DNA from: Dyadobacter fermentans
Lineage (GTDB): Bacteria > Bacteroidota > Bacteroidia > Cytophagales > Spirosomataceae
Assembly: GCF_019924045.1 (NCBI RefSeq)
Contig: NZ_JAHXBN010000011.1
Coordinates: forward strand, 248,001 to 312,000
DNA length: 64,000 bases
Direction of reading: 5' to 3'
Both the position numbers and the translations under genes were made by a program. The notes under the pieces were generated by a model, which ran no database searches, was not told the DNA's origin, and saw nothing but the letters and a program-made list of their open reading frames with translations. Below are positions 13,581-27,917 of the stretch, one piece after another (the first letter of the stretch is position 1; every line of letters starts with the position of its first letter).

Positions 13581-14309
13581 TCAGGCCATGCTGTCTGTCA
13601 TCTTTCCGGATTTCTTCAGATACCTTACATAACCATACAATGCACCGAGGATCAGCACAATCACCGCAAAAAGGGTGATTCTTTTATCCGGTTCCGGCAC
13701 GATTTCCGGGTATTTGAAAATCAATAGGGCCACAATGCCTATCAGCCAAACCAGCAATGTGTTGTATTCTTTCAAAAGCCAGCGCTTGTAATTGAAACGC
13801 ATGTCTTTGAATGTATCCAAAATACCTGCCGGATTGATCAGCCAGCGGTTCACCCGGCTGCAATACGCATCGAACTGCGTACCGAATTTATTTCTCAGAA
13901 AGTTCTCCTCCGCCAGTACAATCGCCTGATAGATAAACAAAAACAGCGGCATTACGATTCCGACGTAGATCAGCGAGTTAGCCAAAATACCCACGCCCAG
14001 CAACATCAGTATATTACCCACATACAGCGGGTTACGGCAATGCCGGAAAATACCTTCGGTCACCAGCTTCTCGGCATACACCTTTTTGTCGCGGCCGCCG
14101 CGGATAATGTACGCGAGGCCGATGGTGATACCCCGGATGAGCTCTCCTGAAAACGTCACCAGTAATCCGAGGATCACCGGGTACAGGTAATAACCAGGAC
14201 CGAATTGCTCACGTGAAAAGATCGGCGGCGACGGCAAAAACAGCAGCAGGTACAGGATGATAAACAGGTTATTTCTGTACTTGAAAAAGAAATTACCGAT
14301 CGCGATCAT
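13581..14309 (-). CDS. membrane methyltransferase of the ICMT/PEMT family
   Basis: A 242-residue protein with about five hydrophobic segments. The family's AdoMet-binding end is present: RHCRNPLYVGNILM (about 91-104) gives the R-x3-NP-x-Y motif, and EENFLRNKFGTQFDAYCSRVNRWL gives the closing EE-FG-Y-Y element. Family members methylate isoprenylcysteine or phospholipid amines at the membrane. Its ATG overlaps the stop of the preceding methyltransferase (ATGA type), so the two are translationally coupled. In this locus a methylated lipid or headgroup is the likely substrate, but none is shown by the sequence. The C-terminus has two further hydrophobic segments beyond the usual core. Confidence 0.78.
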   Translation of the reverse strand: MIAIGNFFFKYRNNLFIILYLLLFLPSPPIFSREQFGPGYYLYPVILGLLVTFSGELIRGITIGLAYIIRGGRDKKVYAEKLVTEGIFRHCRNPLYVGNILMLLGVGILANSLIYVGIVMPLFLFIYQAIVLAEENFLRNKFGTQFDAYCSRVNRWLINPAGILDTFKDMRFNYKRWLLKEYNTLLVWLIGIVALLIFKYPEIVPEPDKRITLFAVIVLILGALYGYVRYLKKSGKMTDSMA

Positions 14310-15055
14310 GATTTTTTATAAGCTATCATTCCTGAAAAATTGTACCACTTGAAGAAAATTTCGCAGTCGGCGAAACCGGCCTCTTTCAGCAGAAGCATGT
14401 TTTCAGACAACTTGTAAGGGATCAGCACATTTTCGAGCGCTTCCCGTTTCTGGGATATTTCGAGCTCGCTGTAATGGTTGCGCCGCTTATAGTTGTAATA
14501 GTATTTAATAAAATCACGATTAAACACGCTGCTCTCCGCGAGCACTTTCTCCACCAACAGCAATACACCGCCGGGGTTCAATCCTTCATAAATGTTTCTC
14601 AGAAGTCTTTCGCGGTACAACGGCCTCACAAATTGCAACGTAAGGCAGAGTATCACGACAGAACCGTTGGAAATGGGAAGCTGCTGGTGCAAATCCCCTG
14701 CGACGAGGTCGTATGGTCTTACAAAACCCGCTTCTTTCAGCTTCAAATCGCATTTGTCGAGCATTTCCTGCGACTCGTCGATCCCGACAAACCGGATGTC
14801 CGAGGGAATGAGTTGGTCCAGACCAATCAGCGTGGTGCCGGTAGAGCACCCCAGGTCGTACACAAATGTTCCTTCTTTCACATGGTCGGCAGCGATCTCG
14901 GCGAGCATTCGCTGCATCTCGTTGTAATAGGGTACTGACCTGCTCACCATGTCGTCAAAGACATTCACCACTGTAGTCCCGAACTTGAAGTCCGAGACCT
15001 TCGTGATTTCATCTCTGAAGACCTGGTCTAAATTCTCACTTCCAAGGTTCTTCAT
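14306..15055 (-). CDS. SAM-dependent methyltransferase, CmoA-like
   Basis: A soluble 249-residue class I methyltransferase. The AdoMet loop is VYDLGCSTGTTLIGL, the acidic strand end is FVGIDESQEMLDKC, and the post-motif is VVILCLTLQFV. The N-terminus (FRDEITKVSDFKFG, VVNVFDDMVSRSVPYY) and the YYNYKRRNHYSELEISQKREALENVLIPY stretch match CmoA, which makes carboxy-SAM from prephenate. No cmoB is nearby, and CmoA-like proteins in Bacteroidota occur in varied contexts. Placement inside a lipid locus and coupling to a membrane methyltransferase suggest a role on a lipid intermediate; CmoA identity is by motif only. Confidence 0.75.
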   Translation of the reverse strand: MKNLGSENLDQVFRDEITKVSDFKFGTTVVNVFDDMVSRSVPYYNEMQRMLAEIAADHVKEGTFVYDLGCSTGTTLIGLDQLIPSDIRFVGIDESQEMLDKCDLKLKEAGFVRPYDLVAGDLHQQLPISNGSVVILCLTLQFVRPLYRERLLRNIYEGLNPGGVLLLVEKVLAESSVFNRDFIKYYYNYKRRNHYSELEISQKREALENVLIPYKLSENMLLLKEAGFADCEIFFKWYNFSGMIAYKKS

Positions 15056-15072
15056 AAGTTAAAGTTACAGAG

Positions 15073-25591: not shown

Positions 25592-26709
25592 ATCGGTTTC
25601 TCAAACAACCTGTACCGTTTGTACAGCTTCCCGTTGATCTGCTCGATGGCGTGGTTCATGAGATAATTCTCTTCCAGCATCCATGAGCATTCGCCGCCCG
25701 TCACTTTGGTGCCGTATGTGTTTTTGATAATGCGGCCGTACAAACAGGCTTCAATACCCATTTTGCGGTAGCCATCGATCACCCCGAGCGTGAGTACGCG
25801 GATGCGCGTGATGTTTTTCTTACCAAACAGTAATTTGAATATCCCGGTCGGCAACAAACGTCCACGCTTGATTTTGATCAGAATCTGGTTGATATCCGGA
25901 ATACCGAGTATAAATCCTACCAGTTCATCTCCTTTTTCAGCCACCAGACAAAACTTCGGATCAAGGATCATTTTCAGGTCCTTGGCCAGGTAATCAAATT
26001 CTGCCTCGGTGGTCGGTACAAAACCCAGGTTCTTGTCCCAGGCCTTGTTGTACACTTCCCGGATCTTCACGACTTCGTTTTTGAAGTCTTTCAGATTCAC
26101 CTGCCGGATCGTGATACCGCTTCTTTTGAGCCTCTCCTCCAACGCATCGATCATCCGCACCGACTTGTCGTTCGAATCTGCCACATTGATTTCGTAGGCC
26201 AGCAAATCGGTTTTCTTCGTCAAACCGGCCTTTTCCAGCAATGGCAGATAATAAGGCGCATTGTAAGGCATCATCGCCATCGGCGGCCGGTCGTAACCCT
26301 CGATCAGCAGACCGCAGGTTTCGTTGGTTGATAAATTTACCGGCCCTACGAGCGTGTCAGCCCCTTTTTGCTTTACCCAGGCGGTGGCTTCCCTCAAGAG
26401 TCCGTCCACCACCTTCTGATCATTTATCGTATCGAAAAAGCCGAAAAAACCGTCCTTCCGATTCGTAAATGCATTGTGGTTCGTATTATAAATCGCCGCT
26501 ATCCTTCCGTTCACTTTGTCTCCGTCGTAGGAGAGAAATAGTTTCACCTCCGAATGCTCATGGAACGGGTGCTTACCCGGTGTGAGCATATCTTTTTGTG
26601 CAATGAACAGTTCCGGTACATAATTCGGATCGTGCTGATACAGATCATGCGGAAAATCAATGAACTTGCCTAATTCCTTCGGAGAGTTTACGGGGGCTAT
26701 GCGGGTCAT
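25588..26709 (-). CDS. GNAT-fold acyltransferase; candidate bacterial ceramide synthase (bCerS-like)
   Basis: A 373-residue soluble protein with two GNAT-like halves. The N-terminus [37 protein letters not shown] is a recognised opening of large Bacteroidota GNAT proteins; the C-terminal half has [18 protein letters not shown] and [26 protein letters not shown] as acyl-CoA site strands. Bacterial ceramide synthase, described in Caulobacter, is a GNAT-type protein that N-acylates 3-ketosphinganine, unrelated to the eukaryotic enzyme. Overlaps of four bases with both the palmitoyltransferase and the epimerase gene support that assignment here. The catalytic residues are not identified by eye. 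Confidence 0.75.
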
Positions 26710-27917
26710 AGTCTTTGTCTTTCGATAATAGCGTCAGGGCAAACTTCACGGTAAATGCGGGACATTTTATCCACTGCCTCCTCGATCTGGCCGAATGTAT
26801 GCGTGGCCATCAGCGAGAAACGGATCAGCGATTGTTCCGGGCGTACCCCTGGCGAAACCACCGGGTTCACAAAAATCCCCTCGTCCTGCAATCTGCGTGT
26901 CATGATGAAAGTCTTCTCGTTGTCGCGGATGTACAGCGGCAGGATCGGGCTTTCGGTTGCGCCCAGGTCGAAACCATTCACGAGCAGCAACTCTTTCGCG
27001 TATCTTGTATTGGCCCAAAGACGCTCCATGTGGTGCGGCTCCGTTTCAATAATATCCAAAGCAGCCAACGTGCTTCCCACGGATGCGGGCGTCATGCTCG
27101 CGCTGAACATGAGCGAGCGCGCGCGGTGTTTCAGGTAATCGATCGTAGCGGCGTCACCGGCGATGAAACCACCCAGGGAAGCCAGCGACTTGCTGAATGT
27201 TCCCATAATGAGGTCGGTCGTTTCAGTTAATCCGAAATAGGAAGCGGTTCCCGCCCCTTTATCACCGATTACCCCAAGGCTGTGCGCGTCGTCGACGAGC
27301 ACGGTGGCGTCGAATTCCTGAGCGATCGCATTCAATTCAGGAAGTCTGACGATATCGCCTTCCATACTGAAAATACCGTCCGTCGCAATCAGTTTTACAG
27401 CTTCCTCCGGCAGGAGAGCGAGCTTTTTACGCAGGTCCTCCATGTCGTTGTGCTTGTACTTAATCACTTTCGAGAACGACAGGCGGCTTCCGTCGATAAT
27501 GGAAGCGTGGTCGCTTTCATCGAGGATCAGGTAGTCGTTACGGCCGGTGAGGCATGACAATGCGCCCAAATTGGCCTGGTAACCTGTACTGAACAGCACT
27601 GCACCTTCTTTTCCTACATATTTGGCCAGGCGGCGTTCCAGCTCCTCGTGGATGTCGAGCGTTCCGTTGAGGAAGCGCGAACCCGCGCAACCTGTTCCGT
27701 ACTTCTGAGCCGCCTTTTGCGAGGCTTCGATGATGTAGGGGTGGGATGTTAAACCCAGGTAGGAGTTGGACCCGAACATCAGGACCGGCTTCCCGTTAAT
27801 AATAACCTCTGTGTCCTGTCCGGACTCGATCGGTCTGAAAAAAGGATATACACCTTTGGCTCTTGCGATCGCCGGGTCTTTGAATTCGGCGATGCGATTA
27901 TTTAAGATTTTACCCAT
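26706..27917 (-). CDS. spt: serine palmitoyltransferase (alpha-oxoamine synthase family)
   Basis: A PLP enzyme that condenses serine with an acyl-CoA to give 3-ketosphinganine. The 403 residues show the family pattern: [43 protein letters not shown] (His137 stacking on PLP), [15 protein letters not shown] (Asp209, His212) and [13 protein letters not shown] with Lys243 as the Schiff-base lysine. The N-terminal [20 protein letters not shown] is as in Bacteroides and Sphingobacterium SPT. The related cysteate acyltransferase of sulfonolipid synthesis shares all of these motifs and cannot be excluded. It opens the lipid locus, with a 449-base gap before it. Confidence 0.88.

Follow-up and report, generated by a model that had tools for sequence, protein, structure and literature searches.

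In the 64,000-nucleotide stretch of Dyadobacter fermentans DNA analysed here (the window), 14 open frames between positions 13581 and 27917 are best explained as two units: an inositol-lipid block at 15713-27917, accompanied by an optional hydroxylase gene (15073-15711), and a separate gene pair at 13581-15055. The block would direct the synthesis of ceramide phosphoinositol from salvaged inositol, optionally 2-hydroxylated, a reading to which we assign a probability of about 0.6. Families, gene order, conservation and residue identities are read directly from the sequences, while all reactions and both products are predicted. The open-frame check of the window bears out an earlier sequence-only reading in its description of 14 consecutive and mostly tightly packed minus-strand genes: 11 of the 13 junctions overlap or span at most 76 nt, with wider gaps of 114 nt at CerR-DUF5686 and 253 nt at flippase-HAD. 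The coupling of the three ceramide genes by 4-base overlaps was also described correctly (SPT-GNAT and GNAT-epimerase), and an overlap of the same length joins the CmoA and PEMT genes. The features, from SPT onward, are:

26706..27917, minus strand: serine palmitoyltransferase (SPT); NCBIfam equivalog NF047600 (SerpalmtaseCFB), 715.5 bits, cut-off 640
25588..26709, minus strand: GNAT-fold acyltransferase, candidate bacterial ceramide synthase (bCerS); predicted structure and 4-nt overlap with SPT
24581..25591, minus strand: NAD-dependent epimerase/dehydratase family protein, candidate ceramide reductase (CerR); PF01370, 121.5 bits, cut-off 20.9
21896..24466, minus strand: CarbopepD_reg and DUF5686 protein; PF18939, 185.1 bits, and PF13715, 67.1 bits, DUF5686 above the Pfam cut-off
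21155..21868, minus strand: nucleotidyltransferase, predicted inositol-phosphate cytidylyltransferase; PF00483, 37.4 bits, cut-off 21.2
20209..21078, minus strand: ATP-grasp enzyme, by predicted structure
19250..20209, minus strand: CDP-alcohol phosphotransferase-like membrane enzyme, predicted to transfer phosphoinositol from CDP-inositol to ceramide; PF01066, 41 bits, cut-off 22
18220..19257, minus strand: LPG_synthase_TM/flippase-like membrane protein; PF03706, 91.6 bits, cut-off 33.4
17259..17966, minus strand: HAD-superfamily hydrolase; PF00702, 67.7 bits, cut-off 26.4
16304..17209, minus strand: PfkB-family kinase, predicted ATP-dependent myo-inositol kinase; PfkB above the Pfam cut-off, best PDB match TM0415 (E=1.2e-33)
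15713..16282, minus strand: DUF4833 protein; PF16117, 184.3 bits, above cut-off
15073..15711, minus strand: fatty acid 2-hydroxylase of FA2H/Scs7 type, optional part; PF04116 (FA_hydroxylase), 66.4 bits, above cut-off
14306..15055, minus strand: CmoA-type carboxy-SAM synthase, separate module; TIGR00740, 248.6 bits, cut-off 193.3
13581..14309, minus strand: PEMT/ICMT-family membrane transferase, partner of CmoA, separate module; PF04191, 45.8 bits, cut-off 25

In the proposed pathway, SPT would condense serine with an acyl thioester, the GNAT protein would carry out N-acylation and the epimerase-family protein would perform the reduction that yields dihydroceramide. The GNAT protein was matched by no profile in Pfam and NCBIfam searches; a structure predicted for it (mean pLDDT 74.6, lower in places) resembles tandem GNAT enzymes (best Foldseek E=1.1e-11, TM 0.60/0.69). 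Among Pfam and NCBIfam models the candidate CerR matched broad epimerase/dehydratase families only, and no CerR-specific one. The hydroxylase, which may act on the N-acyl chain, is of FA2H/Scs7 type as originally proposed, its closest match being the catalytic domain of yeast Scs7 (4zr0, E=1.5e-33, residues 15-200).

The headgroup would be assembled by products of several of the remaining genes of the block. The PfkB kinase is predicted to phosphorylate free myo-inositol with ATP, in place of the inositol-phosphate synthase (MIPS) of related clusters, the nucleotidyltransferase would then produce CDP-inositol, the CDP-alcohol transferase-like enzyme would pass phosphoinositol to ceramide (or to diacylglycerol first), and the flippase-like protein would move the lipid across the inner membrane. 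The family assignments made earlier for the nucleotidyltransferase, CDP-alcohol, flippase-like, PfkB, HAD, DUF4833 and DUF5686 proteins all score above profile cut-offs, and that of the ATP-grasp protein, which found no match in the Pfam search, is confirmed by a predicted structure (pLDDT 87.8) with the ATP-grasp fold; this protein could be akin either to the inositol phosphate kinase ITPK or to ATP-grasp ligases. The nucleotidyltransferase matches the fused IPCT/DIPPS model NF041135 weakly (25.6 bits, cut-off 580). The CDP-alcohol enzyme keeps DxxDGxxAR-x8-GxxxD, and its final Asp lies one residue later than in the canonical signature DxxDGxxAR..GxxxDxxxD (as given in Heaver 2022, PMC9246714), a shift found throughout the fetched family: the last Asp stands at +4 in none of 121 homologues, and position +5 is Asp in 113 and Asn in 8. 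We therefore call it CDP-alcohol phosphotransferase-like.

Conserved order in relatives was the genomic check suggested by the sequence-only reading itself, and the 11-gene core from SPT to DUF4833 came through it. The CDP-alcohol gene marks 37 other Dyadobacter loci, and in 36 of these the core is intact, with order and single strand kept, which makes it more than a chance arrangement; in the 37th, a contig end splits the locus and the rest lies on another contig. Ceramide, headgroup, hydroxylation and flippase-like genes are joined in a conserved block, as had been claimed, with the hydroxylase gene as an optional part, present in 20 of the 37 loci. The CDP-alcohol gene is absent from 10 of the 48 genus genomes. 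In the neighbourhoods of the 80 named relatives of this gene, a nucleotidyltransferase was found in 75 cases, an ATP-grasp gene in 76, a HAD gene in 76 and a flippase gene in 47; on this count the ATP-grasp gene belongs to the headgroup set.

The source of inositol phosphate is best read as the PfkB kinase, standing in for the synthase, which the block lacks. The myo-inositol kinase TM0415 (PMC5931981) contacts inositol through D11, N78, Q141 and R145, and these residues are kept in all 60 PfkB rows compared (59 of them fetched sequences, 47 distinct). The signature of pyrophosphate-dependent kinases (K171, F221, R229, R232 and M266, with RXGRGD) reads K, Y, A, C and I in the window, and of the 60 rows 58 have A for R229 and 59 have C for R232; with GCGD replacing RXGRGD, the window enzyme is predicted to use ATP and not pyrophosphate. 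The PfkB gene is found in all 38 genus genomes that hold the CDP-alcohol gene (in one of them through the contig-cut locus L197), and DUF4833 is the next labelled gene after it in 36 of 36 genus loci holding PfkB. No MIPS was matched in the 37 genus loci, and PF01658 was matched nowhere in the genome in 15 of the 38. The window genome has a single PF01658 match, on another contig (C77), so this strain may have a source of inositol phosphate besides the kinase. Within the genus the presence of the synthase is unrelated to that of the block (23 of 38 genomes with it, 7 of 10 without it; Fisher p=0.72).

Alternatively, the module could make phosphatidylinositol on diacylglycerol, with the ceramide genes as mere neighbours and ceramide phosphoinositol as a secondary product, if it is made at all. 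Such a diacylglycerol intermediate was proposed for the alternative pathway in Heaver 2022 (PMC9246714), and the module does lie apart from SPT in Sphingobacterium and in nearly all fetched Bacteroidales loci; it was also found in the 16 other Sphingobacterium loci fetched, one of them cut. In Spirosomataceae and Parapedobacter, however, the module sits within the SPT block, and SPT is present in all 20 well-flanked loci that carry PfkB (well-flanked being those with more than 8 kb on both sides, 57 of the 80 named loci), and we consider this alternative unlikely. The two Parapedobacter loci have the genes in one run, SPT-GNAT-epimerase-MIPS-DUF5686-NTPt-ATPg-CDPAP-LPGTM-HAD-PfkB-DUF4833-FA2H, and group with Sphingobacteriaceae in the CDPAP tree.

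It is also conceivable, and in our view rather improbable, that the headgroup is another cyclitol, a sugar or a polyol phosphate on which PfkB acts. Among homologues with altered acceptor pockets, some formed different inositol phosphates and others had no known acceptor (PMC5931981), and in the window I76 of TM0415 is replaced by F and S89 by Q. Furthermore, the 57 well-flanked loci comprise 24 with the synthase only, 18 with PfkB only, 2 with both and 13 with neither. Against this stand the invariance of the four inositol contacts of TM0415 and the occurrence of the synthase near the module in 43 of the 80 named loci, 26 of them among the well-flanked 57. The points that we count against the inositol reading are these 13 loci, locus L086, where only the nucleotidyltransferase and ATP-grasp genes occur together, the I76 and S89 changes, which accompanied another product in other homologues, the departure from the CDP-alcohol signature in 121 of 121 homologues, and the synthase on the other contig.

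That all 14 genes form one pathway, with two methyltransferases acting on the ceramide headgroup, is highly improbable: although 35 of 37 genus loci have the pair after the block, on one strand with it, the pair also occurs without the block in nine Dyadobacter genomes, in duplicate form in two further ones (G028 and G037), and in four genomes of family f3 and G301; in the stretches fetched from Runella, Larkinella and Rhabdobacter the block is present and the pair is not, the 11 genomes of other genera of the same family in the order sample lack CmoA at E<=1e-20, and the first gene of the pair is of CmoA type. A fixed 14-gene unit is thus refuted, and the suggestion of a possibly methylated ceramide loses its support. 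Of the "two methyltransferases" originally listed, the PEMT-family membrane protein stands, and the product of 14306-15055 belongs to the CmoA family (TIGR00740) and is not an ordinary methyltransferase.

For the pair, we tentatively propose, at somewhat below even odds, a carboxy-SAM-dependent membrane carboxymethyltransferase: CmoA would make carboxy-SAM, and the PEMT-family protein would transfer the carboxymethyl group from it to an acceptor in the membrane, probably a lipid. The acceptor may be a lipid A phosphate, an aminolipid or a sphingolipid headgroup, and the product an acidic lipid not yet described, in some Cytophagales and other Bacteroidia. This prediction follows from the PEMT gene lying directly downstream of CmoA in all 53 fetched CmoA loci, including genomes without the block, and from no CmoB being recognised in the genus genomes and five others. 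The window genome has no PF08003 match; PF08003 matches occur in 8 of the 48 genus genomes (7 above the Pfam cut-off, best 65.7 bits, profile positions 71-228 of 315) and in 3 of the 5 further genomes (best 64.8 bits), and of nine such proteins scanned, seven are TIGR04290 methyltransferases (above that cut-off and below the CmoB cut-offs) and two were unmatched at 1e-12. The CmoA protein aligns with E. coli CmoA (4gek, E=3.1e-49) and scores 177.9 bits with a second CmoA model, NF011995, against a cut-off of 285.

We consider it less likely than not that CmoA has lost the ability to make carboxy-SAM here or that the pair methylates in the usual way, with a lipid phosphate as one potential substrate, as for LmtA. 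The nearest curated model of the PEMT partner is LmtA (TIGR04571), which, going by its name, we take to be the lipid A 1-phosphate O-methyltransferase of Leptospira. The partner aligns with it over residues 5-203 at 70.3 bits, far below the cut-off of 325, and differs from LmtA in its pairing with CmoA and its altered cofactor motif. Two cofactor contacts of E. coli CmoA are changed (N90 is E or D here, and N132 is C or S), and a strong PEMT match occurs in G521, where CmoA is absent. Opposed to this are the constant adjacency and Arg204, the equivalent of E. coli Arg199, which forms the salt bridge to the cofactor carboxylate and is kept in 66 of 66 rows (65 fetched, 52 distinct). The partner also has RNP and Arg70 in all 52 readable paired rows, as opposed to RHP in 8 of 8 and Thr in 7 of 8 unpaired rows, these being two of 24 such paired-versus-unpaired differences.

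The extra headgroup genes, thought at first to lack precedent, have one: in Heaver 2022 (PMC9246714) a gene set of this kind, from Bacteroides vulgatus and Prevotella, is presented as a putative alternative inositol-lipid cluster. The likeness is one of families, gene order and gene content. Genes for NTP transferase, CDP-alcohol transferase and HAD proteins occur together (17259-21868 in the window), and the LPG-synthase-like (18220-19257) and carboxypeptidase-regulatory-like (21896-24466) proteins are putative counterparts, by family, of BT_1521 and BT_1527. Since MIPS is not encoded with it, the window cluster is a variant and not a member of that cluster; it has PfkB in place of MIPS, its module is fused to the SPT-GNAT-epimerase genes and sometimes to an Scs7-type hydroxylase, and the present comparison adds ATP-grasp as a near-constant component. 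Contrary to the earlier suggestion, the core lipid has probably been described already, because ceramide phosphoryl-myo-inositol was reported from Sphingobacterium spiritivorum (in Heaver 2022) and Sphingobacterium carries the same module. Like the myo-inositol kinases TM0415 and MI3K_TK (PMC5931981), the window kinase has a ribokinase-family sequence, and it keeps the D, N, Q and R by which TM0415 contacts inositol; it differs in having GCGD for RXGRGD and in its proposed role in lipid synthesis rather than catabolism. The block suggests that inositol taken from the environment can substitute for inositol phosphate made de novo. By family, the ceramide trio corresponds to spt, bcerS and cerR of Caulobacter (PMC11087976), but in the window the three genes overlap and head a headgroup operon. 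The block would represent an ordered gene set with which free-living Bacteroidota could make an inositol sphingolipid starting from serine, with ceramide and headgroup synthesis in one operon, and its flippase-like gene is a candidate flippase; according to the 2024 Caulobacter paper, none had been identified in Caulobacter. Finally, the pair resembles CmoA/CmoB tRNA and CmoA/CmoX DNA carboxymethylation (PMC3663124, PMC12783734, PMC10491745) in placing a CmoA-type synthase beside its presumed user and, like the CmoX phage, has no recognised CmoB. Its partner, in contrast, is a PEMT/ICMT-family membrane protein and neither CmoB nor a DNA methyltransferase. Literature searches found no publication on a membrane carboxymethyltransferase of this kind, and the pair, if the prediction is true, would bring to membranes a carboxy-SAM chemistry known from tRNA, DNA and natural products.

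The fourteen minus-strand genes at 13581-27917 of the window do form a tightly packed run, with 11 of the 13 junctions overlapping or no longer than 76 nt. The sequence-only reading joined all of them in one pathway; this interpretation is partly supported: the sphingolipid block is conserved as one unit, and the two methyltransferase genes form a separate pair. The block can be placed as a new version of an inositol-lipid cluster that is described but unproven, and the most novel element of the locus is the CmoA-PEMT gene pair, earlier filed as two methyltransferases of the sphingolipid pathway. 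The features referred to below are:

13581-14309, minus strand: PEMT-family protein of the pair
14306-15055, minus strand: CmoA of the pair
15073-15711, minus strand: Scs7-type hydroxylase, optional in the block
15713-27917, minus strand: the block, from the serine palmitoyltransferase (SPT) to the DUF4833 gene
15713-16282, minus strand: DUF4833 protein, within the block
19250-20209, minus strand: CDP-alcohol transferase, within the block

Family scans bore out the earlier calls of SPT, an epimerase-family reductase, a CarbopepD/DUF5686 protein, a nucleotidyltransferase, a CDP-alcohol transferase, a flippase-like LPG_synthase_TM protein, HAD, PfkB and DUF4833, and also matched the fatty acid hydroxylase and PEMT. 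Assignment of the hydroxylase to the FA2H/Scs7 type is supported by its alignment with yeast Scs7 (E=1.5e-33). The GNAT and ATP-grasp proteins have no Pfam match; structure prediction followed by Foldseek supported a tandem-GNAT-like fold for the former and an ATP-grasp fold for the latter. That the locus would make a sulfonolipid (capnine) in place of a sphingolipid was rejected at the level of sequence models, as the SPT model cut-off is passed.

Joint conservation in relatives, put forward earlier as a check, was followed in 48 Dyadobacter genomes, the window genome included. The CDP-alcohol gene scores above 500 bits in 38 of them; in the other ten it is unmatched (3) or reaches at most 24 bits (7). 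Across the 37 other Dyadobacter loci bearing this gene, which represent related genomes and not independent events, SPT, GNAT, epimerase, DUF5686, nucleotidyltransferase, ATP-grasp, CDP-alcohol and flippase genes are each present in all 37, and HAD, PfkB and DUF4833 in 36; the remaining locus stops at a contig end, and all three lie on its continuation (L197). The core gene order is unbroken in 36/37 loci; CmoA with PEMT is found at 35 and the hydroxylase at 20. The comparison beyond the genus used 80 named relatives of the CDP-alcohol gene, the top-scoring ones out of 543 or more relatives. Among them, Runella, Larkinella and Rhabdobacter have the Dyadobacter core, with neither CmoA nor PEMT in the stretch that was fetched; in Sphingobacterium SPT is absent and the run consists of inositol-phosphate synthase (MIPS, PF01658), nucleotidyltransferase, ATP-grasp, CDP-alcohol gene, flippase and HAD; loci of Bacteroides, Dysgonomonas and Tannerellaceae carry the same module as Sphingobacterium, often with MIPS; and in both Parapedobacter loci a single run holds the core together with MIPS, PfkB and the hydroxylase. 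The CDP-alcohol protein tree joins Parapedobacter to Sphingobacteriaceae (98/92). Its Spirosomataceae rows, all of which bear PfkB apart from one on a cut contig, group together with weaker support (84/92). Eleven loci with weak nucleotidyltransferase matches (L088-L098, up to 39 bits) hold no other module gene in the stretch, bar a 23-bit epimerase match in L098.

The claim that the two methyltransferases serve the same pathway is not supported. The first of the genes is of the CmoA type: its product is over the TIGR00740 cut-off and under that of NF011995. It aligns over 239 residues with E. coli CmoA, with identity in 92 of 240 columns; Glu164 and Arg199, the latter reported in PMC3663124 to bind the cofactor carboxylate, are kept, and A70, N90, I118 and N132 differ. 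CmoA is over the cut-off in 47 of the 48 genus genomes. PEMT lies directly downstream of it on the same strand at all 53 CmoA loci fetched (48 Dyadobacter copies, four from family f3 of the same order and one from the distant Bacteroidia genome G301), again largely related genomes and not independent events; L199, from genome G079, was left out of this count, its CmoA scoring 163 bits, below the cut-off, with no PEMT match. Reading frames near this sub-cut-off relative (L199, 8824-9654) resemble ABC transporters and an AMP-forming ligase, and the stretch may be a natural-product cluster.

The association was followed in wider samples, the window genome being part of those for class and order, with CmoA searched at E<=1e-20 throughout and PEMT at 1e-8 (class), 1e-12 (order) and 1e-20 (order of G301). 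Two of 295 class genomes have CmoA over the cut-off, both with an adjacent PEMT above 250 bits, the next PEMT scoring 80 bits. Ten of 194 order genomes, six of them Dyadobacter, have CmoA over the cut-off, and the same ten have a PEMT above 340 bits, which by its coordinates adjoins CmoA; the PEMT match that follows these reaches 81 bits. In the order of G301 (119 genomes) four have CmoA, each with an adjoining PEMT at gaps of up to about 90 nt, and one further genome, G521, has a PEMT of 221.6 bits and no CmoA at E<=1e-20.

The PEMT partners are themselves distinct. Comparison with eight unpaired homologues flagged 24 differing positions; among the 52 of 54 paired rows that were readable, all have Arg70, where 7/8 unpaired rows have Thr, and all have Asn93, where 8/8 unpaired rows have the His of an RHP motif, a residue also present in the ICMT structure 4a2n. 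We propose that the pair would carboxymethylate a membrane acceptor. Since the pair also occurs without the block (nine of the 48 Dyadobacter copies are in genomes without the CDP-alcohol gene), this acceptor need not be a sphingolipid.

CmoB was searched for with PF08003. Matches occur in 8/48 genus genomes, seven over the Pfam cut-off yet partial (best 65.7 bits), and CmoB was not recognised there. Ten of the 14 listed places were fetched, from the genus and other pair-bearing genomes, and nine proteins scanned; seven are TIGR04290 methyltransferases, all under the CmoB cut-offs, which favours the CmoA-PEMT reading. Several pair-bearing genomes (L212-L216, L219-L221) have TIGR04290-family methyltransferases that are related to CmoB over the middle part of CmoB. 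The carboxy-SAM users named in the parts of PMC12783734 and PMC10491745 concerned are CmoB, CmoX and natural-product enzymes, and none of the best matches on CmoA and carboxy-SAM in a library of open-access papers is on a lipid carboxymethyltransferase.

It was also considered that the ATP-grasp protein might act like CmoY, described in PMC12783734 as a ligase acting on the carboxymethyl handle. In genome G014 another ATP-grasp gene adjoins CmoA-PEMT, the sole such case among the off-block pairs fetched; the others have no ATP-grasp gene within about 5 kb, and the idea was set aside. In G014 roughly 60 kb separate the pair (L194, 8530-14258) from the block; the second, divergent ATP-grasp gene is directly upstream, and the pair is flanked, as in the window, by relatives of the window GAF (9674-12070) and RND (28367-31513) genes.

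As to the headgroup, the best solved relative of the PfkB protein is TM0415, characterized in PMC5931981 as a myo-inositol kinase using pyrophosphate; given its high Km for inositol, the true acceptor was not settled there. The four inositol-contacting residues of TM0415 are identical in the window protein and invariant in 60/60 rows, 13 of which duplicate another row; two other pocket residues differ. An ATP-type GCGD stands where the pyrophosphate signature would be, and for this reason a pyrophosphate-dependent kinase was rejected. PF01658 is absent genome-wide in 15 of the 38 block-bearing Dyadobacter, all 15 of which keep PfkB (the genus searches for PfkB covered block-bearing genomes only). 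One such case is Dyadobacter psychrophilus DSM 22270 (L115), which bears the block and the hydroxylase, lacks any PF01658 match and would be expected to need an external supply of inositol. The idea that MIPS regularly accompanies the block in Dyadobacter was rejected, its presence being unrelated (Fisher p=0.72). Of the 80 named loci (the top-scoring ones out of 543 or more), 57 have over 8 kb of flanking sequence on each side; these have MIPS only (24), PfkB only (18), both (2) or neither (13). From the kept inositol residues, the MIPS-free genomes and this split, we read the PfkB gene as a putative source of inositol phosphate by salvage. Salvage need not be the sole source in the window species, because its genome has one MIPS copy, of a distant type (22-29 bits against the cluster type), on another contig, C77 (L045, 6715-7977); no window genes were found in the 14 kb around it. 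In a Bacteroidales bacterium far from Spirosomataceae (L143), a PfkB relative (112 bits) adjoins the CDP-alcohol gene, flippase and HAD, with SPT and DUF4833 absent from the stretch and the contig cut close by; this is possibly an independent association of the kinase.

The CDP-alcohol protein and its homologues (n=121) keep DxxDGxxAR-x8-GxxxD, with the fourth-Asp position held by Gly (120) or Ser (1) and the next residue by Asp (113) or Asn (8). Against NF041135, a model of the fused inositol-phosphate cytidylyltransferase/transferase, the nucleotidyltransferase and CDP-alcohol products match weakly (25.6 and 24.9 bits, cut-off 580). The ATP-grasp gene is near-constant (76 of the 80 named relatives, the top-scoring ones out of 543 or more); its fold search placed RimK/LysX/ArgX nearest with inositol phosphate kinases close behind, ligases and kinases not being separated. 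In 36/36 genus loci the labelled gene that follows PfkB is DUF4833, whose product begins with a hydrophobic stretch and may be exported.

The lipids of Sphingobacterium spiritivorum have 2-hydroxy content. For Sphingobacterium detergens, inositol phosphoceramide is named in the relevant part of PMC12724326 only as a possibility. The putative, unconfirmed cluster outlined by Heaver et al. 2022 (PMC9246714) consists of MIPS, an NTP transferase, a CDP-alcohol transferase and HAD; genes for a carboxypeptidase-regulatory protein and for a homologue of LPG synthase lie close to it. CDP-inositol was proposed as an intermediate and, for HAD, a ceramide product made from PI was suggested. As that cluster is outlined there, its families and those of the window are alike, whereas the window block differs from it in lacking MIPS.
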